Assembly (NCBI GenBank): GCA_030062745.1
Contig: CP099848.1
Coordinates: forward strand, 6,896,501-6,960,500
From: Capitulum mitella
Lineage: Eukaryota > Arthropoda > Thecostraca > Pollicipedomorpha > Pollicipedidae
Length of the DNA: 64,000 nt
Reading direction: 5' to 3'
Shown here piece by piece: positions 8,095 to 64,000 of this stretch. Within the stretch, counting starts at the first letter, position 1; every line of letters begins with the position of its first letter. The translations under genes and the position numbers were made by a program. The notes beneath the pieces were generated by a model that had not been told where the DNA came from, searched no databases, and saw nothing but the letters and a program-made list of their open reading frames with translations.

Positions 8095-8815
8095 AATGTT
8101 GTTTGTTATGAAAATACTGTTTTCCGCGATAATGGTATGTCCAATACGGGACAAACGTTAAAAACAGGGGGTTTTGGGTGGGGTTAATTTTCTATATCGC
8201 AACAGGGGGCTTTAGGGAGTTTTTTCGTACCCGACCAGTGACTGCTAACGGTGTTATCGGTGGCTAGGCGGTGGCCGTGCTATGTGTGAATGTTGTGTTC
8301 GAGGATATTGGTATGTCCAATACGGGATAAACGCTGGGAACGGGGGGTTTGGGTGGGGTTAATTTTGTATATTGGGACAGGGGCTTTTCCGGACCGGCGA
8401 TTGGTACCGGTGTTATCAGTAGCCGGGCGGTGGCCGTGCAATATGTGAATGCTGTGGTCGGCGATATTGGTATGTCCAATACGGGATAAACGCTGGGAAC
8501 AGGAGATTTGGGTGGGGTTAATTTTCTATATCGGAACAGCTTTTCCGGACCGGTGATTACTACCGATGTTATCGGTGGCCGGGCGGTGGCCATGCTATAT
8601 GTGAATGCAGTATTCTGCGATAATGGTATGCACAACAAGAGATAAACTCTGGGAACAGGGGGGTTTGGGTGGGGCTTATTTTCTACATCGGAACAGGAAG
8701 CTTCAGGGGGCTTTTCTATACCGGGCCGGTAATTGCTACCGGTGCTATCGGTGGCCTGGCGGTGGCCGTAAAACTATAGGAATTGTAGACTGGTTTTCCA
8801 CATTAAACCAGCGGG
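8095..8815 (+). repeat. Tandem repeat, about four copies of a 155-174 bp unit
   Basis: The block GGTATG...CCAATACGGGA.AAACG recurs at 8134, 8308, 8469 and 8624, so the spacing is 174, 161 and 155 bases. Each copy has GGTTTGGGTGGGGTTAATTTT-like and ACCGGTG..ATCGGTGGC blocks. The copies differ by small indels, and the last is the most diverged. Long open frames here on either strand are shadows of the repeat. Confidence 0.85.
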
Positions 8816-8918: not shown

Positions 8919-8981
8919 CTAGAGGCCACAGGCCGATGAAGGGTGCGATTGGTCTTGGCTCTTTCCAACACTTAAGGTAGA

Positions 8982-9456
8982 TTAGGTTAGGTTGGTAAGG
9001 TTAGGTTAGGTTAGGTTAGGTTAGGTTAGGTTAGGTGAGGTGAGGTTAGGTTAGGTTAGGTTAGGTTGGGTTAGGTTAGGCTAGGTTAGGCCAGGTTAGG
9101 TTAGGTTGGTAAGATTAGATTAGGTTAGGTTAGGTTTTGTTAGGTTAGGTTGGTAAGGTTAGGTTAGGTTAGGTTAGGTTAGGTTTTGTTAAGTTAGGTT
9201 GGTGTGATTAGGTTGGTAAGGTTAGGTTAGGTTAGGTTAGGTTAGGTTAGGTTAGGTTAGGTTAGTTTAGGTTGGTAAGGTTAGGTTAGGTTAGGTTAGG
9301 TTGGGTTTTGTTAGGTTAGTTTGGTAAGGTTAGGTTAGGCTGGGTTAGGTTAGGTTAGGTTAGGATAGGGTAAGTTAGGTTAGGTTAGGTTAGGTTAGGT
9401 TAAGTTAGGTTAGGTCTGTAAGGTTAGGTTAGGTTAAGTGAGGTTAGGTTGGGGTA
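8982..9456 (+). repeat. Interstitial (TTAGG)n array
   Basis: About 475 bases consist of TTAGG units with point changes, broken at intervals by TTGGTAAGG and TTTTG variants that suggest higher-order amplification. TTAGG is the telomere unit of most arthropods. The array ends abruptly in AT-rich single-copy sequence on the right. A 23-base leader (8922-8944, AGAGGCCACAGGCCGATGAA and on) is shared with a shorter TTAGG tract at 50691. Confidence 0.92.
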
Positions 9457-22500: not shown

Positions 22501-23478
22501 CCATGACGACTGGGGTGCGTAAGCTGACGTCACGAAGGAGAAGCTAACCAGAACTTTCTCCAAAAAATGGTAGAGGTTGCCATACAAAGCCGTAAACTTA
22601 AATAAAAGGTCAACAAGAGAGCCGTCTTGATTGTTTTTGAAGCGTCCAAGACCCACTAATGTGGAGTCCCCGACCAATGCAGGTGACCAGACTAAGCTCT
22701 GAAAATTAATGAAAAATACGACTCAGATAAAAAAAAAACTGATAAAACGCTCATTCACGCATTACATCCACAAAGTTACAAAATTGGGTAAAAGCCCATC
22801 CACACCAAACATACAAAACGTAATATTTTTGATGGACTGCTACCAATACTGGTAAACAATGCTTTAAAAAGCAGCCAGAAGAAAAAATAAAGTGGCCCAA
22901 ACCCACCAAAAATTCTGCTTGTAATGGGAAGTAAAAATGTCTGGCATCGCATCTGGCCTCACGTTTTCACAAAATAATGCCCGTGAGATTCTCTTTATGT
23001 TTATATCACATCATCATCATGCACAATCATACGCATCCTGCAAGCAAAACGAAGAAACGATCCTAATCCAGCAAGACGATACAGGTGTGTTGGAGCTGAG
23101 GGAGGGGGAGCAGGGGACAGTTGCCCCCAGCTTTGGGCAACGTTTACCACTTACCCTGTATATGGTGGTGCATAGATGAAACAAGATAAAAATCACATTT
23201 GCCCCCCCCCCCATCTCCACAGAAGTCGCGCCGCTACTAGGATGATACCTTTACAAACTCATCGACGATCAAAATGACTCACCGACGATCAAAATGGCGG
23301 ACAGGAAAGTGGCCATCATAGATAGTGACACAGGCGCCACTCGCATGTTGCGCGTGATGAGCAGCTTCTGCGCATCTTGGTTGCGCATGCCGTAGAAGAT
23401 GCCGATCGCCAGGGTGGCCAGGATGAACACCACCATCACAATGATGTTCACGGTACCGAACTCGGCCGTCGGCGCCAT
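12316..23478 (-). CDS. Sodium/solute symporter, SLC5 family (SMCT-like), nine exons
   Basis: Nine minus-strand exons (23490-23283, 20211-20078, 18244-18056, 16888-16734, 16291-16151, 15759-15422, 14800-14646, 12900-12769, 12520-12316) join in consistent phase into about 548 codons from ATG at 23478. Family members couple Na+ entry to uptake of small organic solutes across the plasma membrane. Order and sequence of blocks match the sodium-coupled monocarboxylate/multivitamin transporter branch: RNMRVAPVSLSMMATFLSA, GTPSEIFYFG, TSVYEYLGLRY, GGFRAVVWADVLQA, PLERHNFW then WTSLLGVNQPAVQR, and SGALSTVSSSLNSLAAVT, which holds the Ser/Thr positions of the sodium site in this fold. The substrate cannot be read from sequence. 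The last exon shown ends in phase 1, so a C-terminal tail exon is missing. Introns carry a piggyBac-like element, a (TA)n tract and a hairpin. The first donor is tandemly duplicated. Confidence 0.9.
12769..12900 (-). CDS. SLC5 gene exon 8
   Basis: The acceptor GATCAG precedes 12900. It encodes GVTSGLVVGLAVALWASFG (membrane) and then an outer loop with CPFNVT, a possible N-glycosylation site. The donor GTCAGC after 12769 keeps phase 0 into exon 9. A stronger-looking GTGAGA after 12731 is the alternative, but it would not match exon 9 in phase. Confidence 0.75.
13291..14482 (-). mobile_element. piggyBac-like non-autonomous element, copy B
   Basis: Intact TTAA duplications flank it (13291-13294 and 14479-14482), with ends CCCTATTCCCGGAGGG on the left and CAACAGGG on the right. 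It is an inverted, diverged copy of the element at 1905-3190 and is colinear with it over its whole length, about 95 bases shorter. It lies in the SLC5 intron between exons 7 and 8. It has no coding capacity. Confidence 0.78.
13844..13876 (-). promoter_or_regulatory. Four half-sites in DR1-DR4-DR4 spacing, inside copy B
   Basis: TGACCT is found at 13844, 13851, 13861 and 13871, the exact mirror of the 2543-2575 cluster. Conservation of all four half-sites and spacings between two diverged copies is the reason for listing it. Regulatory function is inference. Confidence 0.5.
14646..14800 (-). CDS. SLC5 gene exon 7
   Basis: The acceptor CTTCACAG precedes 14800 and the donor GTCAGT follows 14646. 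It encodes LVFGIASVGLSFLAQNMGG, QIAIGVYGGCTGPILAIF and LALFLPFSNPA, which correspond to two consecutive helices late in the SLC5 fold. It enters in phase 1 and leaves in phase 0. Confidence 0.88.
14801..15421. other. SLC5 intron 6
   Basis: No repeat or additional exon was recognised in these 621 bases. Confidence 0.55.
15422..15759 (-). CDS. SLC5 gene exon 6
   Basis: The acceptor CTTCCGCAG precedes 15759 and the donor GTCGGT follows 15422. At 338 bases it is the longest exon. It encodes a helix (GVIGGFLMLMMTALATLSG), CDPL, a short outer loop, then GLGGLFLACVL and SGALSTVSSSLNSLAAVT, the most conserved block of the family, and WEDFL. A 278-residue plus-strand frame over the same bases is a shadow. 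Confidence 0.92.
16151..16291 (-). CDS. SLC5 gene exon 5
   Basis: The acceptor TTGCAG precedes 16291 and the donor GTGAGC follows 16151. It encodes WNVDPLERHNFWNTFFGQ and WTSLLGVNQPAVQRLLSLP then TYKKAAA, the signature of the loop and helix before the middle of the SLC5 fold. Confidence 0.92.
16292..16733. other. SLC5 intron 4
   Basis: It contains a (TA)n tract at 16481-16532 and a short CAAAT-type run near 16567-16600. Nothing else was recognised. Confidence 0.6.
16481..16532. repeat. (AT)n microsatellite in SLC5 intron 4
   Basis: About 26 AT units, within an intron. Confidence 0.95.
16734..16888 (-). CDS. SLC5 gene exon 4
   Basis: The acceptor CGCTGCAG precedes 16888 and the donor GTGAGA follows 16734. 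It encodes GGFRAVVWADVLQASIMVAG and a helix, then GGFSQMLEINRKHERLTLF. The GGxxAVxWxDxxQ block is diagnostic for SLC5. Confidence 0.92.
17257..17288. repeat. Perfect hairpin, 14 bp arms and 4-base loop, in SLC5 intron 3
   Basis: The left arm is 17257-17270 (ACTACTAAGCCCAG), the loop is TAGC, and the right arm is 17275-17288. There are no mismatches. It is short enough to be a chance fold or a transposon end. Confidence 0.7.
17950..18055 (-). repeat. Degenerate minisatellite next to the SLC5 exon 3 donor
   Basis: Blocks of CACACGGGCCACC and CCCTCCCATTCAC-type sequence recur two to three times immediately downstream of the exon 3 donor (minus strand). One block carries the donor context GTGAGTGGGAGGGA and another GTGAATGGGAGGGA. 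Confidence 0.5.
18056..18244 (-). CDS. SLC5 gene exon 3
   Basis: The acceptor CGTTCCAG precedes 18244 and the donor GTGAGT follows 18056. In phase 0 it encodes YLGLRYNKKPLKLVGT, LLYTGIALYAPSIVLSNVTG and LSICLTGLLGTSYTAF. NVT is a possible glycosylation site if it faces outward. Confidence 0.92.
18245..20077. other. SLC5 intron 2
   Basis: Mostly featureless. Around 19802-20000 a GGGGTATAGCCAAGGG start and CCTCCTTGGTGACATCC end suggest another short element of the hAT-like type seen at 23851, but the ends are too degraded to call. Confidence 0.45.
20078..20211 (-). CDS. SLC5 gene exon 2
   Basis: The acceptor CATTTCAG precedes 20211 and the donor GTAACC follows 20078. It completes the Gly codon begun in exon 1 and encodes GTPSEIFYFG, a helix (ITFPIAASIGAIFFLPTFF) and RLQLTSVYE. 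Confidence 0.9.
20212..23282. other. SLC5 intron 1
   Basis: Three kilobases without a recognised gene. It holds a GCTGAAT run near 20830-20862 and AAT repeats near 21098-21150. Confidence 0.5.
23257..23296 (-). repeat. 20 bp tandem duplication spanning the SLC5 exon 1 donor
   Basis: Two adjacent 20-base copies (23277-23296 and 23257-23276) differ at one position. Read on the minus strand the exon-side copy has GTCG then GTGAGT, while the intron-side copy has ATGAGT, so its donor GT is lost. Confidence 0.88.
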
Positions 23479-34314: not shown

Positions 34315-35740
34315 CATTTTGCTGGACGGCATTCGTGTAATGGGCCTCACGAGCGCCGAGCGCCTGGACGGCGTCCGCGAAATGCTGCGGCGTCTCTCTG
34401 CTGCAGGTCTCAGAATCAACGAGAAAAAGACGGTCTGACTGTCCGACGAGGTTCAGGGCCTCGGGCGTCGTCGGCGGGCATCAGGCCGGCCGAGGAGATT
34501 CCAGCCGGCCGCTCTGGACGCCCCGGGGCCGACGTCTCTGCCGACGCCTCCGACGGATGTGGACGGTCTTAGCCGCCTGCCTCTTCCCGACGTTGCCACC
34601 GAAGTCCTCGTCCCAGTGGACGTGGTCAGTCCGATGGACGAACCGGCTAACCTTGTTTTTGTTCCACGGGTGTGCGGCGCCACTCGCCGAGATCCGGTAA
34701 CGGCCGCCACTCTCCTGTCGTTCCAGCACGGTCGGCCGTCCGAGTCGTCCGGCTCTGACCTCACGCCTTACTTCAGACGCCGCCACGAGCTCAGCCTGGA
34801 GGAGGGACGCTTGGTCTGGGGACGCCGAGTCGTAGCCTCCGCAGCTCCGAGCGCGTACTGCAACTGCTTCACGACGGTCACCCAGGCATCAGCACGATGC
34901 AGAAACTCGACCGCTGCCGCGTGCTGTGGCCTGGTCTCGATGGGGAGATCAAAAACATGCTCAGAGCCTGGAGGTCATGTCAGACTCATCGGGGAGCTAT
35001 GCCCGAAGTCCCCGATAACCCGTGGGTCTTCCGGAGCAGGCCCTGGCAGAGAATCCATGTCGACTGTGCTGGGCCAGTCGAGGGAGCTCGTTGGCTACTC
35101 ACTGAGGTGGGCAGTCATTTTAAGTGGCTAGGTATTCACGTCACGTCGTCTACGTCCTCGCCTGCTGAGAACACGTCTGGATTTCCTGAAGCCTTGTCTT
35201 CAGCAGTCCGCGGAGAGAAGGCGGACGGCGTCGAAGTCCGCTCATGATCGCACAGCACAACACCGAGAGTTCACCGTTGGTGACGCGATGTTCTTGGGTT
35301 TTATTCCGGGCAGCGACTCGCAGTGTCTGCCCGAGATTGTCCTGCCGATCGACGGTCTGGGCTGTCGTGTCCGGCTGACGGACGGCCGGGTGTTCCGGCG
35401 ACACCAGGGCTCCGCCCGTCATCGCCCGGCCGCTCCGGACTGAGGTGTCCGTCACGCCGGTGCCCGTCGCGCCCGAGGGATCGGCGCCCGCCGCCGGTGT
35501 TCACCGAAGAAACCGGACCGCCGGCGTCGGCGGCGCCCACCGGGATACCAGAGGATCTGCCGAGCTCGCCGCCGGCTCCTGGCGTCGTGCCGCCCGCCGA
35601 GGTTCAGCGCCGGGACTCCGGTGGACCTGAGCACCGCGACGCCGTCTCGACTGGACACCGAGACCCCGCCGCGTTCGAGTGTCGGGCGCGCTCGGACCCT
35701 GCGTCGGCCGGAGCTCGTCCGATGCAAACCCCAAAAACTT
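34315..35740 (+). pseudogene. Ty3/gypsy pol relic: reverse transcriptase end to integrase tail
   Basis: In order on the plus strand, in shifting frames: a decayed YLDD-type region (LLDGIRVMG) followed by LRRLSAAGLRINEKKTV; DGLSRLPLPD, the usual end of the RNase H region; PYFRRRHELSLEEGRLVWGR; an integrase zinc-binding-like segment (GISTMQKLDR); PWQRIHVDCAGPVEGARW, the start of the integrase core; and, after an apparent deletion of most of the core, RVRLTDGRVFRRHQ, a typical C-terminal tail. RNase H and the integrase core are mostly lost. Same strand and family as the fragment at 32490, so possibly one element. Confidence 0.78.
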
Positions 35741-49656: not shown

Positions 49657-50059
49657 GGCAATCCTTTAGAAGCACACGCCATAAACCAAGCACACTGGAT
49701 GACACATATACGGCGCGCGTGGCAAAAGGAGACGTCATCTGTTGCAAAAAACATCAACATTAAGCACTAGAGCTCCAGGGTCATGGATCACCTACTATTC
49801 GCTAACCTAACCTAACCTAACCTAACCTAACCTAACATTTTGAAAAGGGAAGGCATTCCAGAATGCAGTAGCCAAAAGATAAGCTAGTATGTGCCTACTG
49901 TGTAAAACAAGAGCGAATAGTAGGTGGATCTACGACCCTGGAGCTCCAGTGCATAATGTTGTTGTTTCTTGCAACAGGTGACGTCTCCTTTTGCCACGCG
50001 CGCCATATATGTGTCATCCAGTGTGCTTGGTTTATGGCGTGCGCTTCTAAAGGATTGCC
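49657..50059. mobile_element. Foldback element with about 147 bp inverted arms
   Basis: The arm 49657-49800 (GGCAATCCTTTAGAAGCACA and on) is repeated in inverse at 49911-50059 with few mismatches. CCAGGGAT stands directly outside both ends, so it may be an 8 bp target duplication as made by hAT transposases. Alternatively the left CAGGGATCGGCAATCC is itself a hAT-type terminus. The loop carries a CCTAA tract. It is non-coding. Confidence 0.82.
49802..49836 (-). repeat. (CCTAA)n tract in the foldback loop
   Basis: About seven CCTAA units, the complement of the TTAGG arthropod telomere repeat. Confidence 0.9.
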
Positions 50060-50260: not shown

Positions 50261-50690
50261 AAACATCTTCCAGCATGATCTGGCTGTGCACCTGGGGTAA
50301 AAATACTCCATATTTTGGAACATTTGAATGGCAGGGTTAGGGCCAAGCAACAAGCTTGACTCAGTTTGGCAGTGATCCCAATGCTACCCATGTCATTTTC
50401 AACCTGTTTGGGCTAAATTTGTAAAGAAAAAGATGAAAAAATTTGTTTTGTTCCCATAGTTACTGTAGTAATTGTTCAATCATTACATGATTACATTATT
50501 GTATTAGATCATTGTTAGGATAGATTGTGCCAATATTATTATGGTATGGGGTTTTATGTTTCACACATACCACACTTTTGGCACAGGATTTGCACTGAAG
50601 GTGCAACCTCTGATGGAAGGCATGGATAGGATATAGAGGCTGCAGGCTGATAAAGGGCATGACAGGACTTGACCTTGGTTCAACAAAGAG

Positions 50691-50725
50691 GTTAGGTTAG
50701 GTTAGGTTGGTTAGGGTAGGCTAGG
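50691..50725 (+). repeat. Short TTAGG-like tract with the same leader as the 8982 array
   Basis: About seven degenerate units follow a leader at 50635-50657 that matches 8922-8944 at 19 of 23 positions. All four differences are transitions. Confidence 0.75.
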
Positions 50726-52475: not shown

Positions 52476-52635
52476 ATGCCGCGCGCCCGCAGCAGTGACT
52501 CAGCCCAGTATGAGGACCTGTCGGCGCTGGCCGGCAGCGGTCCGCCCGGCTCGCTGCTCAGCCAGGTGTCGGACGTCCGCGACCCGGGCGACCAGCTGGA
52601 GATGACCGCCTCCACGGCCGGCGTCGTCCCCGATG
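52476..52635 (+). CDS. SVOP: SVOP-like exon 1
   Basis: ATG at 52476 opens [20 protein letters not shown], a cytosolic N-terminal tail, and runs to [11 protein letters not shown]. The donor GTCAGT follows 52635 in phase 1. The tail is poorly conserved in the family, so the start is supported mainly by the frame and by the fit to exon 2. Confidence 0.75.
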
Positions 52636-55600
52636 GTCAGTGGTGGCCCGGCTGAACCGGCTGGGAAGGTCGCGGCGCGGTCCGTGAGGTGTGATTGGTA
52701 GCCTGTCCTGCAAGAGTCGTGTCTCGTATAGTATTCTGTTCATAATAATTGGCGAATCCAGCCCTACAGACACATTCACGTCGTCCGTCCTGTTTGTTCA
52801 GGCCATAGTTTTTGTCATTTGGCCTGCCTCACTTACCCGTCCCACAGGGGACGTGTCTTTCACATCTGTCAGCCAGCTTGGCAGCCCTCTCCCACAGCAG
52901 GCACATGTCTTATGTCTCTTTATGCCTGCCACAGAGGCCACGTATCTCTCGTCACTCTGTGCCTACCGCAGTGGACACGTATCTCCCGTCACTCTGTTCC
53001 TGCCACAGTGGCCACGTATCTCCCGTCTGCCTGCCACAACAGCTCCCGTCTCTGTTCCTGCCGCAGTGGACTTGTATCTCAGTCTCTCTGTGCCTGCCAC
53101 AGCAGACCCGTATTTCCCGTTTCTCTGTGCCTGCCACAGCAGACACGTGCCTGCCAGCCGGCGTAACCGGACCTCTCTGCCCGGCAGACACGTTCACCGT
53201 GGACCAGGCGGTGAACGCCATCGGGTTCGGCCGCTTCCAGATCCGGCTGTCGCTCATCACGGGCCTCTGCTGGATGGCCGACAGCATGGAGATGATGATC
53301 TTGGCCATTCTCTCGCCGGCCGTGCAGTGCTCGTGGTTCATCTCCGAGTGGAAGCAGGCCTTCATCACCACCATCGTCTTCCTGGGCATGATGCTGAGCT
53401 CGCCGTTCTGGGGGAAGTTCAGCGACAAGTATGGTCGGAAAACGGTACGTTCTGTCGGAGATGGGCTTGATGTGCGTCAGATGCTGTACTGTTGCCCATT
53501 TTGTAGAATTACTGTATCATGATGTGTTCCCAAACAGGTCTGAATTTGGTGGCAATGATTGTAGTATAAAGGATATCGTCCATTTTTTTTTTACTTTCAC
53601 CAATGCCCTATGCCTATGCTCTATGCAGAGCTAAGCATATTACAGACAAGCTGTAACGTGCTTGTATCAGTCACACATTTCGGATCAGTGAACGCATGAC
53701 ATGGTACATGCGAATGAGGTTTGTTTCCAAGATCATCAGATTTTGCCTTTATGTCCTGAGTAAATGTGTCGGTGGGCCTCACATTACGGCTGGCCGTCAC
53801 GTGCCGTCCCAGCAGCCGCAGTCGGTCCTTAACTGACCCGGCGGCTTCCCGGCCGTTTCTGCCATCTCTGACCGTCTGTCTCTACTGCCGCTGACGGGCC
53901 ATCTCTGCCCCCGTTGACAAGCTGCTGATGCCGCTCGTTGACCGTTTCTGCCGCCGCTGACGGGCCATCTCTGCCGCCGCTGACCGTCTGCTGACTGACC
54001 CCCGTTGACATACGGTCTGCCGCCGTTGACCGTCTGTCTCTGCCGCCGCTGACGGGCCATCTCTGCCGCCGCTGACCGTCTGCTGACTGACCCCCGTTGA
54101 CATACGGTCTGCCGCCGTTGATCGTTTGTCTCCGCCGCCGCTGACGGGCCAGCCGTGTCCGCGATAACCATCTGCCAACTGATCCCGCTGACAGACTGTC
54201 TGCCGCCGCAGATCGTCGGTGTCTGCCGCTGCTGTCGGTCCGTCACTGCCGCTGCTAACCGGTCGCGTCTGACCTCGGCAGACGCTGGTGCTGTCCGGCT
54301 CGTTCCTGTTCTTCTACGGCTTCCTGTCGTCGTTCTCGCCGACGTACGTGTGGCTGCTGCTGCTGCGGGGTCTGGTCGGCTTCTGCGTGGGCGCCATCCC
54401 CCAGGCGTGAGTGGGTGCCCGCCCTGCGACGCTGCGCCGTGCGCCAGTCCGCCGGACGGTCGGTCTGGCCCTGGTGCCGCGCCAGTAGTTCGCCGCACCT
54501 TTTTTCGGCGCGCAGGGCGGCCGAAGTTCCGCGTTCCGTCGGGGATTGTTTGGTCGTTTTTGTGTGTTTGTCGGCGGAGTTGTCTTGTTTCCGGTACGCT
54601 GGTCCGGCTCTGTACCGCGTCTCGTGACCGACTGTGGGGCTGTGTTTGGGTGGACAACGTCTCGCCGTCCGTCAGTGACCGGAATGGTGGTCATCCGGCC
54701 GAACTCAGAGGGGATGAACTTATCGGAGTAGGCGGAGGGGAATGCTGGATTGTGGGACTCCGTTCGTGGCGTAGGTGTGGTGATTAGATGCATTTTAAGT
54801 TGGTATCGTAGGCGCAGTATTTGGCATGCGCAAAGATGTTTGCATGTCGCTGAAATCGATTTGGAATCGGTCTGGTGAGTGATTAGCCTTACAGTGTGTT
54901 CGAGCATAGGTATGGTCGATTGTTGTGCATGGCCTCATGTTTTACTTTTTTGCGCATTTCAGTGTTACTTTGTATGCTGAATTCCTTCCTATGAAGCAGA
55001 GAGGGAAATGTGTTATTTTGTTGGAGGTAAGTGGTATTTTTGGGTGAATGTTATTGAATCTGCCAAACATTTTGGCTACGCTAGTTACACGGTGAATAGC
55101 GATCTTCTTCAGCGCTGAAAGATGCATTTCTTACTGGGCAGCGGGCTGTACGACAAAGTCACGATTGATTTTGTTGTCTACCCCACAACAGTATGCCATA
55201 AGCGTTGGGTTCCAGGCCCTCTCCTTGGTCGTCAGAACCTGCTCCCGTGACGTCTGATTGAGTGAGACACGGTACCCTTCTTACGCCGCCTGGTGCCGCC
55301 GTCAGCCGGCTGGCCTCCGATACTGACCGCTCGCTGACGCCGTCCGTCCGCCGCCGGCAGTGTTTCTGGGCGCTGGGCGCCTGCCTGGAGGTGCTGCTGG
55401 CGCTGTTCGTGATGCCCACGCTGGGCTGGCAGTGGCTGCTGGGCCTGTCGTCGCTGCCGCTGCTGCTGTTCACCCTCATCTGTCCGGTCAGTGGGCGGCC
55501 AGCGACGGGGGGTCCGGGCCGGTGCCGTTTCCCCGAGGGTTCTGAGGGGTTCCCCACGAGCTGGGATGTGTCCACTTCATTTGCATCTCTTCGATGAGGG

Positions 55601-58600
55601 AGCTGATCGTGGCTTCGGGATTACTTACGGTTTTCAATACTGCCCAGCATTCACTGTTTGCATTATTGCAATGTATGTACAGCATTGCATGCCCAGAATT
55701 CGTTGCAGACGATTACGACGTTAGTTTGCTGGTTATTGCGGCGTTTTAAGAAAGCACCGAATGCCTGAGCTTATCTGGTGTGAACTTAATGATAGTATGT
55801 TGGGGAAGTCCGCTGGAGCACGCATTTTCCACTCTCCCTTTAAGTCGTATTTAGCTTTAAACAAACGCCTGCCGACATGTGTCGGTGCTGACCGTGCGTG
55901 CGCGATGGCCCTGTGTCTCTGACGGCGATCGGTCCGGTGTGGGGTCTCAGTGGCTGCCGGAGAGTGCCCGCTTCCACGCGGCCAGCGGCCAGTCGGAGAG
56001 GGCGCTCAGCACGCTCAAACAGCTGGCCGACGACAACGGCAAGCCGATGCTGCTGGGCCGGCTGACCGTGGACGACGTGAGCACGGTGCGGCGCGGCGCT
56101 GTGCGCGACCTGCTGGTGCCCGAGCTGCGCACCACCACCCTGCTGCTCTGGTTCATATGGTGAGTGGTGACCTGCTGGTGCCCGGACTGCACGTCACCAC
56201 ACTGCTGCTCTGGTTCATCTGGTGAGTGGTGATCTGTTGGTGCTCGAGCTGCTCACCACCACCCTGGTGCCCTGGTTCATCTGGTGAGCGGTGACCGGAT
56301 GGTGCCCGAACTGCGCGTCACCGCCCTGCTGCTATCGAGTGTACGGTGCGCCGTGCCGGTAAAGGGTGGTCACTGGATGTTCAAAGTTTACGGGATTGTA
56401 CGCTGTCGGGTTGTGCGTACTGTGGGCATGCGCCTTGTCTGTATTGGAACTGGGGTGGTGAGCGGTGATGAGATGAAACGGAGCGGAGATGAACTCGTGA
56501 AACGGCAGAGTGGGCTGACAGATTTCATGGAGAGTTCGGGGCTACGTGATGGAGTTGGCTTGTGTAAAGAGGTGCATATATTCCGATCTTGTTTTTAGGA
56601 ATGTTTATTTGTCCTTGTCTTGAAGATGTGGTGGGGCTGGGAGTTTTGTAATCGTCATTTTCTGTTCGGTGGTGAGAATGCCGGATGCCAGATACATATT
56701 GGATTGTTTCATGCTCACCTTACGTGGTGATATCCGTGTTCGTCCCCAGGTGGTCCAGCGCCTTCTGCTATTACGGCATTGTCTTGATGACTACAGAGCT
56801 GTTCGAGCTCTCCGAAGAGGATCTGTGCAGCGCTCCACAAGGCTGGGAGGGCGCGGAGGTGGGTTGTAGGATCTGTGCAGCGCTCCACAGGGCTGGGAGG
56901 GCGCGGAGGTGGGTTGTAGGATCTGTGCAGCGCTCCACAGGGCTGGGAGGGTGCGGAGGTGGGTTGTAGGATCTGTGCAGCGCTCCACAGGACTGGGAGG
57001 GCGCGGAGGTGGGTTGTAGGATCTGTGCAGCGCTCCACAAGGCTGGGAGGGTCAGGTGGGTTGTAGGATCTGTGCAGCGCTCCACAAGGCTGGGAGGGCG
57101 CGGAGGTGGGTTGTAGGATCTGTGCAGCGCTCCACAAGGCTGGGAGGGCGCGGAGGTGGGTTGTAGGATCTGTGCAGCGCTCCACAGGGCTGGGAGGGTG
57201 CGGAGGTGGGTTGTAGGATCTGTGCAGCGCTCCACAGGGCTGGGAGGGCGCGGAGGTGGGTTGTAGGATCTGTGCAGCGCTCCACAGGGCTGGGAGGGCG
57301 CGGAGGTGGGTTGTAGGATCTGTGCAGCGCTCCACAAGGCTGGGAGGGCGCGGAGGTGGGTTGTAGGATCTTTGCAGCGCTCCACGGGGCTGGGAGGGCG
57401 CGGAGGTGGGTTGGAGGATCAGTGCAGCGCTCCGTAGGCCTGAGAGCGCGCGGAGGTGGGTCGTAAGATCTCTAGCGGATCCGCGGAGGCCGAATACGCT
57501 GACCTTGGGTCGCAGATATGGGTGCTGCTATATTTTATTTTGGGGTGGGGGGGGGGCGGGGAGGAGGGAAATATGACGAGATTTTAAGAAACGCAGTATG
57601 TGAAGAAGAAATCCCTGATAGAGTCTTAAAAAGACGCAAATCGACGAGCATAATGTAGGACTAGTGTGCTTTTCTCCGTAAAAAAATGTTATTATTCTAG
57701 CCCCAGGAAATGTCAGTGACTTATGTTGTTCTTCATAATGTTGTTTCTTGTGGTAATGTATTCCTATGTGTTCATGGTCTTCCCGAAAAGTGAACAAGTG
57801 ACTGTAAGATATCTTATTGCCATTTCTTGTAGTCAAGAGTAAACCAAGTGTATTGTTCTCTCAGGTGTGCCAGGCTTCTTGCAAGACGCTGGAACAAGAG
57901 GATTACATCGACCTATTGTGGACTACTCTGGCCGAATTTCCAGGTATTTCGTAAGACCTGAAGGATATTTTGCAGGCATTTCATCCCATCTTATTTATTA
58001 GTATGGTTTCCTAACTTGCAGGAGACACGTTTTGGCATCGTATTAGGGTCTTTCTGCATGCACATTGCTCTCATTTGTCTTTCTTCCAGGGATATTTTTC
58101 ACGGTCCTAATTATTGAAAAGTTCGGCCGGAAGAAGACGATGGCGACGGAGTTCCTAATCTACACGCTGGCCATCTTCACGCTCTTCTTCTGTGTTAAGA
58201 GGTAAGTGTCTGCAATGTTTTCCTCAGCGATTCGGTGGAAATGATCTTTTTGGTTGGGTCTGAGGCTGAGGGGAACTTCAACTGTCGACAAGCAATGGTT
58301 TGAGGCGTAATGGTCCCTGATCTACTTCTGGTTGTTTGGAACGTCCGACTAGTATAGCTTCATTCCGAATACGGTTGTTTTTAATAAACTTATCACTGTG
58401 TTGCTTAAGTTATGCTTAAGATTAAAATCCATGCCAAGCAGAATGTTGCGTGGACCTTAAGTCCACCACGGATCGTACATTGCGTAACGTCGTGATGCTG
58501 TGTGGAAAGTAAATGAAGCATTTGAAAGACTTCTAGTGTTCTGCTTGGGGGTGTCATTTGTACTGTCAGGGTCAAAAGTCAAATGTGTTGAATGGGACGG

Positions 58601-61408
58601 ATGTGTACAGCAGAACTTTCTTTTTTGTGTCCTCTGTGGGGAGTACTGACGAAGTCTTTGTGTCTCAGGCGAGCACAAAGATGCTGCGGTTTTCCTGCTG
58701 TTTCGGCTGGGCATTAATGTCACTGAATGTCTCAGGCACGTGGTCCTGATGGTGCCTCTGTGTTTCAGTCTGGCGGTACTGACGGCGACGCTCTGTGTTC
58801 CAGCCGGGCGATACTGATGGTGCCTCTGTGTTTCTGCCGGGCGGTACTGACGGTGCCTCTGTGTTTCAGCCGGGCGGTACTGACGGTGACGCTGTTTGTG
58901 TGCCGTGGCATGATCGCTGGAGTGTTCCAGGCGGCCTATGTCTACACACCGGAGGTAGGTGCTCATCGGACCCCAGATGAAGTCGAAACGTCTTGGAATT
59001 TTTGTGTTCAGCACCTCGAGTAAAAATATTGCGAAGTATTACGTGTTGCATGTATCTGTTACGCGTCTGTAGATTACTTTGATCCTTTCTGATGTTTGCT
59101 TGACATTACATTCTCGAAGAATCGAAAACAATGCCGAATGACGAGGCTGGTAAGACCCTGTGCTTTTTTTACCTGAATTCTATCGCTTTTTCGATGAAGT
59201 GTGTTCGTATGTTTCGTCCAGCAGAGGACAGTCGGTCTCGTGCTCACCGCAGACTGGTGTTGACCGGGTCCGGCGGTTGCAGGTGTACCCGACCACCCTG
59301 CGCTCGGTGGGAGTGGGCACGTGCAGTGGATTTGCCCGGCTGGGCGCCATGTTGACGCCCCTGATTGCCCAGGTCAGTTCAGGTCACCGTGGTGGGGTCA
59401 CCTGCCCGACGGCCTGCCCTGCCCGCGCATATGTCGTGCCTGCCCTTAAGCGTGACATGTAAATGTGTGGCATGAAAATTGTTTTGTCATTCCTCCCCCA
59501 GAACAAAACGGAAAGGTCCTGCAGCCACTGGGCGTAGATTCTGGTGAGCTTGGAAATTCGAACTACCAGTAAGGCGCCTTGTGGGGCGCAGGAAGAGAAA
59601 GGCTTTCCTCGTTGTTCCATGCATTATTGCTCGTTCTTGGTTTTTGCATTACGACTGGACGTTTATCGGCCTATTTCAGTATTCTACATCCGACGAATTG
59701 CGTGGTTGAACGTGACACGCGGCTGTAGGATTGTTCGCTTCCAATTCTGAAGGGTTCACAAACATCCATAAAAAATGGTCAAAGAGCGATATCACGTATA
59801 GTGACTCCCGGAATAGTTATGTGAAAAAAGAGAGGGCAAGGCAACGCATGGCAAGTAAAATTACGTGCGATTTAAAGAACTGGCTTATCGTCTAGCGAGA
59901 CTTTCATGATCCAGTGCCCAGTGGTTGCGAAGTTATCAGCCAGCTGCGGGCGTTGTGGCCGGGCCAATCATCGGACCACACAGACGGTGATCGGACGGCG
60001 GCCGTACAGGGCCAGACGCAGCGTTTGCGGAGGGTCGGCCGATGGTCTTCCGTCTCTGGGCGGGACTGGGGGTAGGACCCCAGCGGGAGGGAAGTCCCTG
60101 CTCGATCCCGCGGTTTCCGGTGGGCGCGTCCGTGCCGTCTGAGACGCCGAGAGCTGCTGTCGGAGGGGAAGCGGAGACTGACAGCCGTGTGATCGGGAGG
60201 CTGACACGGACGGCCGACCGGATGAAATCGCGGCGTTTCCGAGTCCTGGCGAAGGCGTGGTGATGGTGACGATACAGCCAGCGCTGAGGTAGCTGAGAAC
60301 CTGTGGGACCGACCGAAGAGTTGTGGAGGGAACTGTGGGTAAATTTGGCTTAGTGTGACAGAAATGTCTTGCGAGTCGGTGCCATTTACTGCCCCTGGGA
60401 TATAGTCCGACGTGGTGCCATCATGCAACATCATTGGGAATCCGATCGGGTGATCCGGTCGGGTGTCGTATGCCACCATTGTGACGTGGTCTGATGTGGC
60501 ACCAGTGTGACGTGGTCTGATGTTGGCCGTCACCAGAATTTGGTGCGGAACTCTGTACAGAAGGCGGTACTGGTGTACGGCGGGCTGGCCATGGCCAACA
60601 TGATAGCCGCCCTCTGCCTGAAATCGGAGACCGGAGGAAGGCAGATGCTGTGAGGAGGATCGGCCACCTCAGGAGACCTGCCTGCGTCCTGCGTCCGCCG
60701 TCCTCGGTATATGCTCCTCTCCTGTTCCTCCCTTACCGCTGTTTAACTCTGTGGTATCCTCGCTGTTTTCGTCCGATAAGCCTCGTAATGGGTTATTATA
60801 TATTATATCGGGTTATTTATATTTGTATTTGCTGTGCCTTTCGGTTACGCAGGTCAGGCGCGTTACTGCAGCTACCCGTCCTGGCCGCAGCTGCAGTAGA
60901 CTGTGTTCCATTCGTCCAGCGCGTGTTTCTCCGACCCGTTTAAGCCGCCAGAAAGCAGCGCCTCGGCCCCGCCCACCGCTCAGAGACGATTGTTCTGAGT
61001 ATTCAGAAGGGCCTCTGCTGCAATTTCTGTGTAAAACATCGTCTTTTTCAGGCAAGCCAAGACCAAAAAGGTCGTGTGATTCGTCGTTTGGAAATCTGTG
61101 TCCGTCGCAAGGGCAAAAAAAAAAATCCGCACTCGGAAATACAACCCGCAGTGGAAGTCCATCCCCCAGTCGGATCTCGTCTGCGATGCGCTGCCGCCGC
61201 CGTGTCTGATGTAACGCCATCACCATCCGATGTGCCAGCAGCGTCCCTGTGTCGCCAGGTGCTGATCTACCGTTCGCCGTTCGCCAGCGTGCTGGTGTAC
61301 GGCGCGGTGGCGCTGGCGGCCTGCGTGGGCTGCTTGCTGCTGCCGATAGAGACCCGCGGCCGCCCGCTCCAGGACACCCATCTGACCTCGCGCGACGACC
61401 TGCACTGA
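52476..61408 (+). CDS. SVOP: SVOP-type major facilitator transporter, twelve exons with two alternative last exons
   Basis: Twelve exons join in consistent phase into about 521 residues, close to vertebrate SVOP. The family (synaptic vesicle 2-related proteins) has twelve helices and sits in vesicle membranes of neurons; substrates are poorly defined. Conserved blocks in order: [45 protein letters not shown] (MFS motif A), [107 protein letters not shown] (second motif A), [20 protein letters not shown], and [14 protein letters not shown]. The start ATG at 52476 is preceded by an acceptor-like sequence, so a 5' untranslated exon is likely. Minisatellites overlap or abut six splice junctions. 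A CpG-free block lies upstream. The call as SVOP rather than SVOPL or SV2 rests on block similarity and absence of the long SV2 lumenal loop. Confidence 0.92.
52905..53170 (+). repeat. Minisatellite abutting the exon 2 acceptor
   Basis: Units of roughly 36-40 bases (GCCTGCCACAGCAGACACGT and variants with CTCCCGTCACTCTGT) recur about six times. CAGACACGT, which occurs in the unit, is also the true acceptor and exon start at 53185-53193. Confidence 0.85.
53188..53444 (+). CDS. SVOP: SVOP-like exon 2
   Basis: The acceptor CCCGGCAG ends at 53187 and the donor GTACGT starts at 53445. It encodes the conserved entry [18 protein letters not shown], the first helix with [13 protein letters not shown], and the second helix leading to [11 protein letters not shown], the MFS motif between helices 2 and 3. 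Confidence 0.95.
53870..54280 (+). repeat. Minisatellite in intron 2 reaching the exon 3 acceptor
   Basis: Units such as TCTGCCGCCGCTGACCGTCT, in part organised in roughly 100-base blocks that repeat (GACTGACCCCCGTTGACATA twice), fill the end of the intron. A 286-residue minus-strand frame (54657-53797) is a shadow of it. Confidence 0.85.
54282..54406 (+). CDS. SVOP: SVOP-like exon 3
   Basis: The acceptor CCTCGGCAG ends at 54281 and the donor GTGAGT starts at 54407. It encodes helix 3 ([19 protein letters not shown]) and helix 4 ([18 protein letters not shown]). It leaves in phase 2. Confidence 0.93.
54407..54962. other. SVOP-like intron 3
   Basis: A GC-rich start then ordinary sequence; no extra exon supported. 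Confidence 0.55.
54963..55026 (+). CDS. SVOP: SVOP-like exon 4
   Basis: A 64-base exon between CATTTCAG and GTAAGT. It encodes [20 protein letters not shown] and a final Glu, almost identical to the same segment in animal SVOP (loop and start of helix 5). Confidence 0.95.
55361..55486 (+). CDS. SVOP: SVOP-like exon 5
   Basis: The acceptor GCCGGCAG ends at 55360 and the donor GTCAGT starts at 55487. It encodes [19 protein letters not shown] and [19 protein letters not shown], helices 5 and 6. Confidence 0.95.
55951..56159 (+). CDS. SVOP: SVOP-like exon 6
   Basis: The acceptor GGTCTCAG ends at 55950 and the first donor GTGAGT starts at 56160. It encodes [20 protein letters not shown], the central cytosolic loop ([17 protein letters not shown]), [18 protein letters not shown] and the start of helix 7. 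Its 3' end is the first unit of a tandem repeat. Confidence 0.95.
56107..56340 (+). repeat. 62 bp tandem repeat that duplicates the end of exon 6 and its donor
   Basis: Units start at 56107, 56169, 56231 and 56293 (the last partial). Each contains the coding end and the donor: GTGAGT, GTGAGT, GTGAGC, with the fourth lost. Only the first donor keeps the frame; reading past it meets TGA at 56161. Confidence 0.92.
56341..56749. other. Rest of SVOP-like intron 6
   Basis: No further feature was recognised. Confidence 0.55.
56750..56858 (+). CDS. SVOP: SVOP-like exon 7
   Basis: The acceptor GTCCCCAG ends at 56749 and the first donor GTGGGT starts at 56859. It encodes [20 protein letters not shown] and [16 protein letters not shown] (helix 7 and the following lumenal loop). 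The last 40 bases are unit 1 of a 50 bp repeat. This loop is variable in the family. Confidence 0.92.
56819..57465 (+). repeat. 50 bp tandem repeat, 13 copies, spanning the exon 7 donor
   Basis: Copies start at 56819, 56869, 56919, 56969, 57019 (a 47-base copy), 57066, 57116, 57166, 57216, 57266, 57316, 57366 and 57416. Each holds the coding end of exon 7 and a GAG/GTGGGT-type donor. Copies are over 90 percent alike except the last. Two long minus-strand frames (about 205 residues) are shadows. Confidence 0.96.
57466..57864. other. Rest of SVOP-like intron 7
   Basis: It contains a poly-G run near 57541-57555. Nothing else was recognised. Confidence 0.55.
57865..57943 (+). CDS. SVOP: SVOP-like exon 8
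   Basis: The acceptor CTCTCAG ends at 57864 and the donor GTATTT starts at 57944. It encodes [19 protein letters not shown] then TTLAEFP, matching the strongly conserved EEDYMDLLWTTLSEFPG region of SVOP before helix 8. Confidence 0.94.
58090..58201 (+). CDS. SVOP: SVOP-like exon 9
   Basis: The acceptor TTCTTCCAG ends at 58089 and the donor GTAAGT starts at 58202. It encodes [19 protein letters not shown] (helix 8 and the second MFS motif) and [16 protein letters not shown] (helix 9). It ends in phase 2. Confidence 0.94.
58202..58768. other. SVOP-like intron 9
   Basis: Apart from the acceptor repeat at its end, no feature was recognised. Confidence 0.55.
58753..58902 (+). repeat. 33-35 bp tandem repeat of the exon 10 acceptor
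   Basis: Four copies of a unit of the type GTGTTTCAGCCGGGCGGTAC carry acceptor AGs before 58769, 58804 and 58870; the third copy has CTG instead of CAG. Spacing from 58804 to 58870 is 66 bases, a multiple of three, and that stretch is open in frame. Confidence 0.9.
58870..58954 (+). CDS. SVOP: SVOP-like exon 10
   Basis: Chosen acceptor GTTTCAG ends at 58869; donor GTAGGT starts at 58955. It encodes [17 protein letters not shown] (helix 10) and [11 protein letters not shown]. This start gives the same length as family members. The alternative start at 58804 would insert 22 hydrophobic residues in frame. Confidence 0.9.
58955..59282. other. SVOP-like intron 10
   Basis: No feature recognised. 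Confidence 0.55.
59283..59372 (+). CDS. SVOP: SVOP-like exon 11
   Basis: The acceptor GGTTGCAG ends at 59282 and the donor GTCAGT starts at 59373. It encodes [20 protein letters not shown] and [10 protein letters not shown] (helix 11), a near match to animal SVOP. Confidence 0.95.
59373..60536. other. SVOP-like intron before the alternative last exons
   Basis: A 209-residue minus-strand frame (60533-59904) is open but has no recognisable domain and no splice or start context; I treat it as GC-driven chance. A roughly 26-base duplication (TGTGACGTGGTCTGATGT, at about 60480 and 60506) lies just before the exon 12A acceptor. Confidence 0.5.
60537..60653 (+). CDS. SVOP: SVOP-like alternative last exon 12A
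   Basis: The acceptor CGTCACCAG ends at 60536; the exon is in phase 0 like exon 12B and ends in TGA at 60651-60653. It encodes [38 protein letters not shown]. It aligns with exon 12B over helix 12 (VLVYGG versus VLVYGA; ETGGR versus ETRGR) but lacks the usual LPIET block and the long tail. No AATAAA lies between it and exon 12B. Confidence 0.7.
   Translation, partial: NLVRNSVQKAVLVYGGLAMANMIAALCLKSETGGRQML
61259..61408 (+). CDS. SVOP: SVOP-like last exon 12B (canonical)
   Basis: The acceptor GTGTCGCCAG ends at 61258. It encodes [39 protein letters not shown] and [10 protein letters not shown], then TGA at 61406-61408. [11 protein letters not shown] is the standard end of SVOP and related sugar-porter type transporters, so this is taken as the canonical terminus. 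Confidence 0.93.
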   Translation: MLIYRSPFASVLVYGAVALAACVGCLLLPIETRGRPLQDTHLTSRDDLH

Positions 61409-62233
61409 CCGGGATTTAAGAGCAGGCGTTGTCGAGGACCGTGCTGCCACGGCGCGGTGACCTTCGGTGGCATTGCCTTCACTGGCCGTACTGTCAGAGG
61501 GTGGTAATCTTCTCTGACCCGGACATAAGGGCAGGTCGAGACTCCGTGCTGAGCTGGGCCTCAAGGTGTACTTACAGCTGTATCCCTGTCAGTTTTGCGT
61601 GACCCCGAGCGGTCTCTGTCCGTCCAGACATCGCATTACGGCTGTCTGTGCAAACGGTACCTCCAGTAGCGATGGTTGCCGGGTTGCTTTTAAGAATGCC
61701 ACCTTTGCTGATTCTTCCTGACGGCCTGTGCTCAGGCTGCCGACTTGGGCGGGACCACAGCTGGTGAAGCTGTGAAATGTGATCGTGCGACCGTCTTCGT
61801 TCGCACAGCTGCCGGCCGCTCGTGGCGAACACTGCGTGCAGCTGGCCTGAACTGCCCCCCCCCCCCCTCCCGGCTCTCTTATGCCGCGCAATCGCGCCCG
61901 TGAAACAACGAGGAACAGCGGCGTCCCCGAATTGCTTGAATCTCCCCGCAACGAAGTAGAGCTAATTGTTCACCGTGGCTTTCGTGGTGGCCGTCCCGTT
62001 CCGGGGTGGACATCGGTGGTGATGGCTTTAAGGTACCTGAGATAAGATGCGCACATGCAGCGAGGCAGCTGAAATAGGACTCAGTTATCCACTGAAAGAT
62101 CTGACGTTTCTCTACATTTCTGCGTGCACACTGAGCTGTTGTTAAATTATGTAGGTTTGTATATTTTTGTACTGGCGATTTAGTCATGGTCGTCTTGTGT
62201 GGTATCGTACTTCACCTATCGTACGGTGCTGGC

Positions 62234-62239
62234 AATAAA
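62234..62239 (+). terminator. Poly(A) signal AATAAA of the SVOP-like gene
   Basis: A canonical AATAAA about 830 bases after the exon 12B stop, followed by a T/G-rich stretch (TTGTTGCTGATTTGG). Confidence 0.6.
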
Positions 62240-64000
62240 TTGTTGCTGATTTGGATTTTTACGCCGTGTTGGACCACCAGTTTATGTTTCTGATACTTTA
62301 TGTCGTTTTTGGGGCTGTGGCGTTCACGCAGGCTCCTACTTCGTATAAATAAGGTGTGTGTACACAAAGCTGTACGAGCTTGTATCTTTTACTTCCTGCA
62401 TTACTAGCGATGTTCTGCAAGCACTCGGAGTCATGAGGAAGAGTTTCTCGCGGAAGGAGACGAAATTAACGACAATACATGGGACGCAGAAAAGCGGGAT
62501 GTAGCAGTTGCGAAATCAACTGCAACAATCACGACAGTCGCAGTTCCGCCATAGCGCGGAAAAATTGTGTTGCTAGGACGTGGAAGGAGCAAGAAGTAAT
62601 AATGCTGTAACCAGTAATAACTAGTAATAAGTAATAACCAGTAATAAGGTAATAACCAGTCTGGCTCGCAAACTATTACCCAGTGCTCTCCCACCATGGC
62701 TGGAAATTTCCGGAAAGTTCAGGAAGAGGCAAGAATGGGATGTCAGCCTATTGTTTTCTAATCACTGTGAGGGGCATAATGTTGAAAGTCAGTCAGATAG
62801 AGTCAAAGTCAAAGTCAGAAAGTCGGAACGTGCAGAGCAGGGGCGGAACTTAATAAACTTTGGAAGGGAAGATGTTACCTCTCCCAATGCTCAGTAATGA
62901 AATTATCAAGCATGAAAGGGCTGGACGCACCCCGCCCCCCCAATTGCCGGGTGATCGCCGTTTTCAATTCCGGGATTTCCGAGAAAACTGAAACCATTAA
63001 TCGAACATCAAGATAAAGTGGCCGAAATCAGATTCCCGTGCTAGAGGGGGTCGCTGCCCCAAATTTACATTCTCCTGGAGTAGAGTCTATAGGCTCTGCA
63101 ATGTCCCCACACACGTACACCATCATCATTTAATATTTAAATGATAACAATAGTAGCAATGGAAGTTATAGCCATGATAGCGTAATATTCTAATTTCCAA
63201 CATTTTTCTGGCATTGCATCGTGATACAAATAGAAATGTTCTTGTTAGCAATGCTTGTCTTCTTCGCGCGATGTTTGTCTTTAAATTTGTTATGGTCAAA
63301 AATTCAAGGACGAGGTCGTGCTGTGTTGTGCACACGGCGAGGTCGCTGCCCGTGGTGGAGATACATGGGCGTTTGTGACTTGAGGTTGTTCTTGAGAGCG
63401 CACCTTTTGAGTGACCTTCGCTGATTCAGGTACGTGAGCTTGCAAACTGATTCATTTAACCTTCTTCTACCGCCGTTACGGCCTATGCCGCGGATGGGTG
63501 GAGCCACTTCCCAAAAACTGGGGTGGGGGCATCAGAAGTTCTTTGGGACAGTCTGACCCAAAATCGGATGTGTTAACGTGAAATTGCGAAAATTGCTTGC
63601 TCTCCGATCAAGATTGGGGTGACAAAAAACCATTTGGCTAAAAGTGTAGGGGACATGTCTTCTCAGCCACCTCGGTGGCAGGGATCTATTTCACTATGTC
63701 CAGAGCGTGAAATTTGGTGAAATCATACTTTAAAAAAACATGACTATTATGATCATCTCATTTAACATGTCTCTATCATCATTAGATTCATAATTTCCAG
63801 AGAAAGCAGAATCATGAAGTCCTGACTGCAGGATATGATACAGGCTTCATAATTTATATAAGTATTTGGTTTGATGATGAATGTTTGATTTGCTTGACAA
63901 GTATTTGATGTGATTGATTGGGTAGCAAATTGATTGGTGGTGGAACATGAATATTTGATGTCATTGGTATGATTCAGCATCAAATTGTCTTGTTTACTTT
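62240..64000. other. Downstream spacer
   Basis: It includes a TAATAACCAG-type repeat at about 62595-62655, an AGTCAAAGTC run near 62787-62825 and a GCAGGGGCGGAACTT motif at 62837 that may be a hAT-like end. No gene recognised. CpG is again scarce after about 63700. Confidence 0.5.

Follow-up and report, generated by a model that had tools for sequence, protein, structure and literature searches.

Splice junctions of an SVOP-like gene in the barnacle Capitulum mitella lie within minisatellites that look like mirages

Three splice junctions of an SVOP-like gene in the barnacle Capitulum mitella, the donors of exons 6 and 7 and the acceptor of exon 10, lie inside the units of minisatellite arrays. 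These arrays are probably splice-junction minisatellites ("mirages"), in which the exon-proximal site is used and the extra copies are tolerated, rather than a splicing switch. A tandem duplication would have copied a short stretch across an intron-exon boundary, and slippage or unequal exchange would have expanded the copies into the intron, where added length may be tolerated. At the level of sequence, the pre-mRNA would offer several donors or several acceptors that are alike in strength. Exon definition is predicted to direct use to the copy nearest the exon, which is the first of a series of donors and the last of a series of acceptors, and the remaining copies would be spliced out as part of the intron. 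If a decoy donor of exon 6 or 7 were used now and then, a premature stop would follow, and NMD of such transcripts is expected.

The gene has an open reading frame and is identified by comparisons of proteins. When joined, its exons (table 1) form an open frame of 521 amino acids with exon 12B as the last exon, and of 510 amino acids, open through all joins, with exon 12A in its place. The protein is a member of the SVOP (synaptic vesicle 2-related protein) family, to which it has near full-length similarity, and falls in the MFS / sugar transporter families. SVOP-like proteins of Amphibalanus amphitrite and Pollicipes pollicipes each match at E=0 with 91% identity over 98% of the query, cover almost the entire protein in the alignment, and are both annotated with PF00083 and PF07690. 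Among the 120 matches listed, 91% is the best identity, and other crustaceans and insects rank below barnacles. The two alternative last exons resemble each other along a segment of 29 nt (83%). A search of positions 60654-62400 with five variants of the polyA signal found only AATAAA at 62234 and TATAAA at 62344, and none between exons 12A and 12B. Separately, the jgi protein P0004 is without about 50 residues that are present in P0001 between GWKW and LLGRL. The gap falls between exons 5 and 6 and is unrelated to the arrays. Because a direct repeat, CTGCTGGGCC, is common to both edges of the gap in the Capitulum window, template switching or misassembly is a possible cause.

Table 1. Locations of the SVOP-like gene, its arrays, and the neighboring SLC5-like gene in the window, the stretch of 64,000 nucleotides that was analyzed
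Feature	Position	Strand	Description
SVOP-like coding span	52476..61409	+	exon 1 ATG to exon 12B stop; from frame and protein alignment
SVOP-like exons 1-6	52476-52635, 53188-53444, 54282-54406, 54963-55026, 55361-55486, 55951-56159	+
SVOP-like exons 7-11	56750-56858, 57865-57943, 58090-58201, 58870-58954, 59283-59372	+	followed by 12A or 12B
Last exon 12A, alternative	60537..60653	+	resembles C-terminus of Pollicipes P0003 and decapod P0006/P0009
Last exon 12B, alternative	61259..61409	+	matches C-terminus of Amphibalanus P0002 and jgi proteins P0001/P0004
Array 1, exon 6 donor	56107..56333	+	62-bp unit, about 3.7 copies
Array 2, exon 7 donor	56818..57471	+	50-bp unit, 13 copies
Array 3, exon 10 acceptor	58742..58895	+	33-bp unit, about 4.6 copies
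Array 4, before exon 2	52923..53148	+	37-bp unit, pyrimidine-rich plus CACAG/GCAG; TRF rows 52923-53027 and 53049-53148; ends 39 bp before acceptor
Array 5, before exon 3	53879..54261	+	46/92-bp pyrimidine-rich unit, CTGAC/TTGAC motifs; four overlapping TRF rows, 23 to 92 bp; ends 20 bp before acceptor
26-bp repeat before exon 12A	60474..60523	+	two copies; ends 13 bp before acceptor
SLC5-like gene (sodium-coupled monocarboxylate transporter)	23478 to 11846	-	ten exons
SLC5-like exon 1 donor repeat	23257..23296	-	20-bp unit x 2; exon 1 = 23478-23283; best local copy 18/24

The neighborhood of the gene has features of its own. The best Amphibalanus and Pollicipes matches of the SLC5-like gene are on contigs equal in size (712,246 and 43,530,072 bases) to those with the SVOP matches, and a conserved neighborhood of SVOP-like and SLC5-like genes fits this coincidence of contig sizes. 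A small repeat also spans the donor of exon 1 in the SLC5-like gene; the second copy, ATGAGT, has AT rather than GT and is a dead donor. Elsewhere in the window are interstitial arrays of TTAGG, the arthropod telomere-type repeat, at 8978-9450, 49802-49836, and 50689-50725; the largest spans 473 bp and includes 60 exact units, read on the + strand. A 159-bp unit is repeated 2.9 times at 8233-8696, between the end of the SLC5-like gene and the side of the TTAGG array. An open frame at 34759-35244 (+) contains HPGISTMQKLDRCRVLWPGLDGEIKNML, which we take to resemble the zinc-binding region of a retroelement integrase.

The TRF rows in the SVOP-like gene were merged to six arrays for counts. Repeats had been predicted to overlap the donors of exons 6 and 7 and the acceptor of exon 10, and the junctions indeed lie inside units, at 56159/56160, 56858/56859, and 58869/58870, respectively. 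The unit of array 1 is composed of the last 53 nt of exon 6, the donor GTGAGT, and 3 nt. Donors are located after 56159 (authentic), 56221, and 56283 (GTGAGC), and the last of the four copies has none. The unit of array 2 is composed of the last 41 nt of exon 7, the donor GTGGGT, and 3 nt; the authentic donor after 56858 is followed by 12 more intact copies, the last at 57455. In array 3, the unit has a branch-point-like CTGAC or CTGAT, a pyrimidine-rich stretch, CAG, and the start of exon 10. The authentic acceptor is before 58870, intact AG copies are located upstream before 58769 and 58804, and the copy before 58837 reads TTTCTG and has lost its AG. The branch-point-like motif is 20-22 nt before the exon edge in all four exon 10 units examined, and is a putative branch point by the consensus yTnAy. 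For the two donors and the acceptor alike, extra copies are confined to the intron next to the authentic site.

The organization of the arrays looks like that of mirages described in amphioxus, here in a gene of a crustacean. Amphioxus mirages are reported to lie at 5' and 3' boundaries of genes with apparently normal splicing and mRNA, to differ in length between haplotypes, and to diverge at their edges (PMC3087553). Their units are 10-72 bp in Adh3 and 150-160 bp in globins (PMC3087553, PMC3902484), and TnC and PGBD5 are further cases (PMC3902484). Likewise, in the SVOP-like gene a minisatellite-like unit spans the boundary at each of the three junctions, boundaries of both types are affected, and units are of similar size (33-62 bp). 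AG and GT signals are held by many but not all copies (three of four at exon 6, 13 of 13 at exon 7, and one AG lost at exon 10). Pairwise identities of copies further reveal an array that is homogenized inside and diverged at its end, as in amphioxus, for exon 7 only. The barnacle case differs in that the host is not a cephalochordate, three and perhaps four boundaries are affected in one gene, and exon 7 has as many as 13 copies. Moreover, amphioxus mirages were studied by RT-PCR and across haplotypes, whereas the SVOP-like arrays are known from one genomic sequence alone.

Other counterparts are less close or fail. Genes in human segmental duplications have 27 intron modifications reported to be caused by internal tandem repeats at exon-intron boundaries (PMC2812944). 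Those repeats are similarly minisatellite-type, located at boundaries, and affect splice signals. In the human genes, however, recent paralogs can be told apart by these changes, which transcripts support, in contrast to a conserved transporter gene seen at the level of the genome. The VNTR of CTNS was rejected as a counterpart because the repeat reportedly lies within an intron and is not a junction repeat (PMC5628181). Listings of barnacle genomes and passages of PMC9582164 yielded nothing on junction repeats, and a literature search with most subscription journals outside its reach found no report of junction minisatellites in barnacles; for crustaceans more widely it turned up coding repeats.

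The SVOP-like locus is a strong local hotspot for minisatellites. In TRF counts of arrays with a period of at least 15, they take up 19% of the gene (1694 of its 8934 bases) versus 2% of the remaining window (1088 of 55,066 bases), and a mutational habit of the locus, one of two options raised in the original prediction, is favored because of this difference. Coverage of the SLC5 gene is 1.1%, and the richest other 8934-base segment tested (starts from 1 to about 43.5 kb) has 516 array bases. The arrays themselves are not a product of chance, since dinucleotide shuffles of the gene, 20 in all, were free of TRF arrays above this period limit. A G-quadruplex was considered as a cause and rejected; the array of exon 7 alone is compatible with it (G4Hunter-type score of 0.77). 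Scores are -0.41 and -0.35 for the arrays of exons 2 and 3 (C-rich on the + strand), and -0.14, 0.24, and 0.18 for those of exons 6, 10, and 12A.

A hotspot may include junctions merely by chance, with selection clearing arrays that fall within exons and with no special relation to splicing. This alternative is a serious one, which we judge to have slightly less than an even chance of being correct, and it is compatible with the mirage reading, denying just that junctions are preferred origins. It is consistent with the array content of the gene (19%) and with the number of overlaps. Three of six arrays overlap a junction versus a mean of 1.47 when placements may overlap at most 60 exon bases and swallow no exon (P=0.15), and versus a mean of 2.89 under free placement (P=0.65); a model without exon contact has zero overlap by construction. 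The hotspot alternative is also consistent with an ungapped scan, in which local copies were sought of 24-mers centered on junctions, with intron and exon-interior positions as controls. Copies matching at least 21 of 24 positions were found for 3 of 23 SVOP junctions (13%), compared with 15% of intron and 2.4% of exon-interior positions, and the junction rate is near the 15-20% found for intron positions. For the SLC5 gene, one of 18 junctions reaches 18 of 24 and none reaches 19 of 24, compared with 2.0% and 1.4% of intron positions. When the TRF threshold is lowered to 30, further small arrays are found both near and far from junctions. Placement statistics fall short of showing that junctions are preferred targets.

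Proximity of arrays to junctions is less easily accommodated by a hotspot alone. Distances from the six arrays to the nearest junction are 39.5, 20.5, 0, 0, 0, and 13.5. The 40-bp limit and the gene itself were picked after seeing the feature, and the following P values, uncorrected for the choice of gene or of TRF threshold, are thus post hoc: summed distance has P=0.003, 0.013, and 0.021 under three limits on exon overlap, and the location of all six arrays within 40 bp of a junction has P=0.0014, 0.0094, and 0.014 (0.0032 and 0.02 in a second placement run; about 0.001-0.02 overall). None of 4000 placements in the model without exon contact put all six arrays within 40 bp. When the limit is widened to 150 bp, P for six of six is 0.15 to 0.20. 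That arrays are closer to junctions than expected by chance is suggestive only. The claim that junction repeats exceed chance placement thus finds some support in proximity and none in overlap.

The arrays near exons 2, 3, and 12A differ in how they relate to their junctions. They had been predicted to abut the acceptors, and their ends are indeed close (table 1). Each array was aligned, with gaps, to 21 acceptors (its own and 20 others) and significance was assessed by shuffling. The exon 2 acceptor ranks first of 21 against array 4 (score of 26, next 22; shuffle P=0.006). The ungapped scan, conversely, found no local copy of the exon 2 junction, with a best match of 14/24 that is level with ordinary junctions. 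It is uncertain whether array 4 derived from, and is possibly an eroded copy of, the exon 2 acceptor. The relation of array 5 to the exon 3 junction is weak (rank 2 of 21; shuffle P=0.08), and membership of the exon 12A junction in the nearby 26-bp repeat is unsupported by the alignment (rank 10 of 21; shuffle P=0.50). The original count of six junctions is consequently reduced to three inside arrays, with one test for and one against a fourth at exon 2.

Units that hold splice signals had been proposed to form arrays of competing donors or acceptors, and this is true at the sequence level, as most copies score like the authentic site. Matrices were built from 20 donors and 21 acceptors of the SVOP-like and SLC5 genes, with the exon 10 acceptor and both donors from arrays excluded. 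The three donors of exon 6 score 8.54 (authentic), 9.47, and 7.16. Twelve of the 13 donors of exon 7 are identical from -3 to +6 and score 8.80, the authentic one among them, and the other scores 8.89. Among the exon 10 acceptors, scores are 7.75 at 58769, 5.12 at 58804, 1.63 at the dead copy at 58837, and 7.02 at the authentic 58870. Upstream of exon 2 (52847-53142), ten AGs exceed a score of 4, eight of them inside array 4, and range from 4.87 to 8.09 versus 7.35 at the authentic acceptor. A gradient of strength that favors the authentic donor was ruled out because decoys are equal, better, or somewhat lower (7.16-9.47). Masking of decoys by RNA structure was likewise rejected, as predicted accessibility does not single out the authentic donor; it ranges from 0.0004 to 0.045 across the 13 exon 7 donors (authentic 0.017) and is below 0.0003 for all three of exon 6.

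Proteins of relatives give an indirect indication of which sites are used. The four closest relatives' proteins (P0001-P0004), some of the compared proteins being gene predictions, have no insertion at the 6/7, 7/8, and 9/10 joins. Of four more distant proteins in the alignment, that of Daphnia (P0072) has a few extra residues close to 7/8 and 9/10, in a manner that is not array-like. Because matrix scores fail to separate the sites and the closest relatives lack insertions, we suggest that proximity to the exon decides the choice.

If competing sites were instead regulatory, their number could determine how much of the SVOP-like mRNA is productive; decoy donors would lead to NMD, and in-frame decoy acceptors at exons 2 and 10 to longer isoforms. 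Most decoys keep their signals and come close to the authentic site in strength, as is true of all 13 donors of exon 7, and one decoy acceptor of exon 10 and three of exon 2 remain in frame and free of stops, which allows for the possibility of alternative products. However, the units of exons 6 and 7, at 62 and 50 bp, cannot be divided by three and shift the frame. Donors 2 or 3 of exon 6 cause a stop straight after the exon 6 frame (314 residues), and donors 2 to 13 of exon 7 yield proteins that end after 386 to 418 residues. A regulated switch is therefore unlikely, as all 14 decoy donors (2 and 12, respectively) lead to a premature stop, and the regulated splicing system that the original prediction offered as the other option is unsupported. 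Decoy acceptors argue similarly. For exons 2 and 3, the frame test took only sites that passed filters (scores above 4 and above 2, respectively). The frame stays open for one of six upstream CAG/TAG of exon 10 (58804, +66 nt; one of the two intact array copies), three of ten upstream AGs of exon 2 (+45, +105, and +216 nt), and neither of two of exon 3. In-frame decoy acceptors are at about chance frequency. Conservation of the exon 6 decoy copies as coding sequence is ruled out, with ratios of amino-acid-changing to silent codons of 3:2, 4:3, and 7:2, and sites have been lost from one exon 10 copy and from the second copy in the SLC5 gene. We consider regulation improbable.

Arrays could also be artefacts of assembly, over- or under-expanded or joined from heterozygous alleles. 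The exon 7 array is of greatest concern, since its 13 near-identical copies over 654 bp are beyond the resolution of short reads, and a globin mirage of amphioxus reportedly looked aberrantly assembled in a draft genome (PMC3087553). However, copies in the exon 7 array carry shared as well as private substitutions. Copy 1, which is coding, is identical over 50 bp to copies 6, 7, and 11, whereas copies 2, 3, 4, 8, 9, and 10 differ from it at one or two bases and copy 5 is missing 3 bp. At the intron end, copies 12 and 13 agree with copy 1 at 46 and 42 of 50 positions, respectively. Copies match at 81-86% in the arrays of exons 6, 10, and 2 (TRF), making a pure duplication artefact unlikely for these. 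We accordingly doubt strongly that misassembly is the explanation. The pattern in the exon 7 array is one of homogenization with a decaying edge, and would be expected of an array that is young or still being homogenized with its coding copy. This suggests that the coding end of exon 7 takes part in exchange or very recently seeded it.

The arrays may alternatively be intermediates of intron gain or sliding, in which copies of junctions become new exons or shifted boundaries. Tandem duplication of segments with splice signals is a described route to introns in a paper that covers the Rogers AGGT model, ATP2A1, and potato RdRp (PMC4974935), and the process has been proposed for amphioxus mirages (PMC3087553). 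The SVOP-like arrays resemble the AGGT model in that a segment with splice signals is duplicated in tandem. They differ in that boundaries were copied into adjoining introns, and no new intron or shifted boundary is seen in the gene. We consider this alternative very unlikely. The SVOP-like protein is continuous with those of relatives at the joins, but the AGGT model leaves the peptide unchanged and continuity does not discriminate. The most doubtful proposal is that the arrays of exons 6, 7, 10, and 2 together constitute a heritable splicing rheostat tunable by copy number; if true, alleles with different repeat numbers would yield different proportions of productive SVOP-like mRNA through NMD and the competition of equal sites, and exons 2 and 10 would give rise to rare longer isoforms from their in-frame acceptor copies.

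As splice-junction minisatellites, the arrays have implications beyond this gene. Mirages have been described in amphioxus, and the presence of several in one conserved gene of a barnacle would suggest that they are no mere cephalochordate oddity. The 13-copy array of exon 7 is a natural experiment on how the spliceosome chooses among many equal sites spaced 50 nt apart. Intron sliding and intron gain could draw on such arrays as raw material, and the arrays may serve as hypervariable markers within a coding gene.
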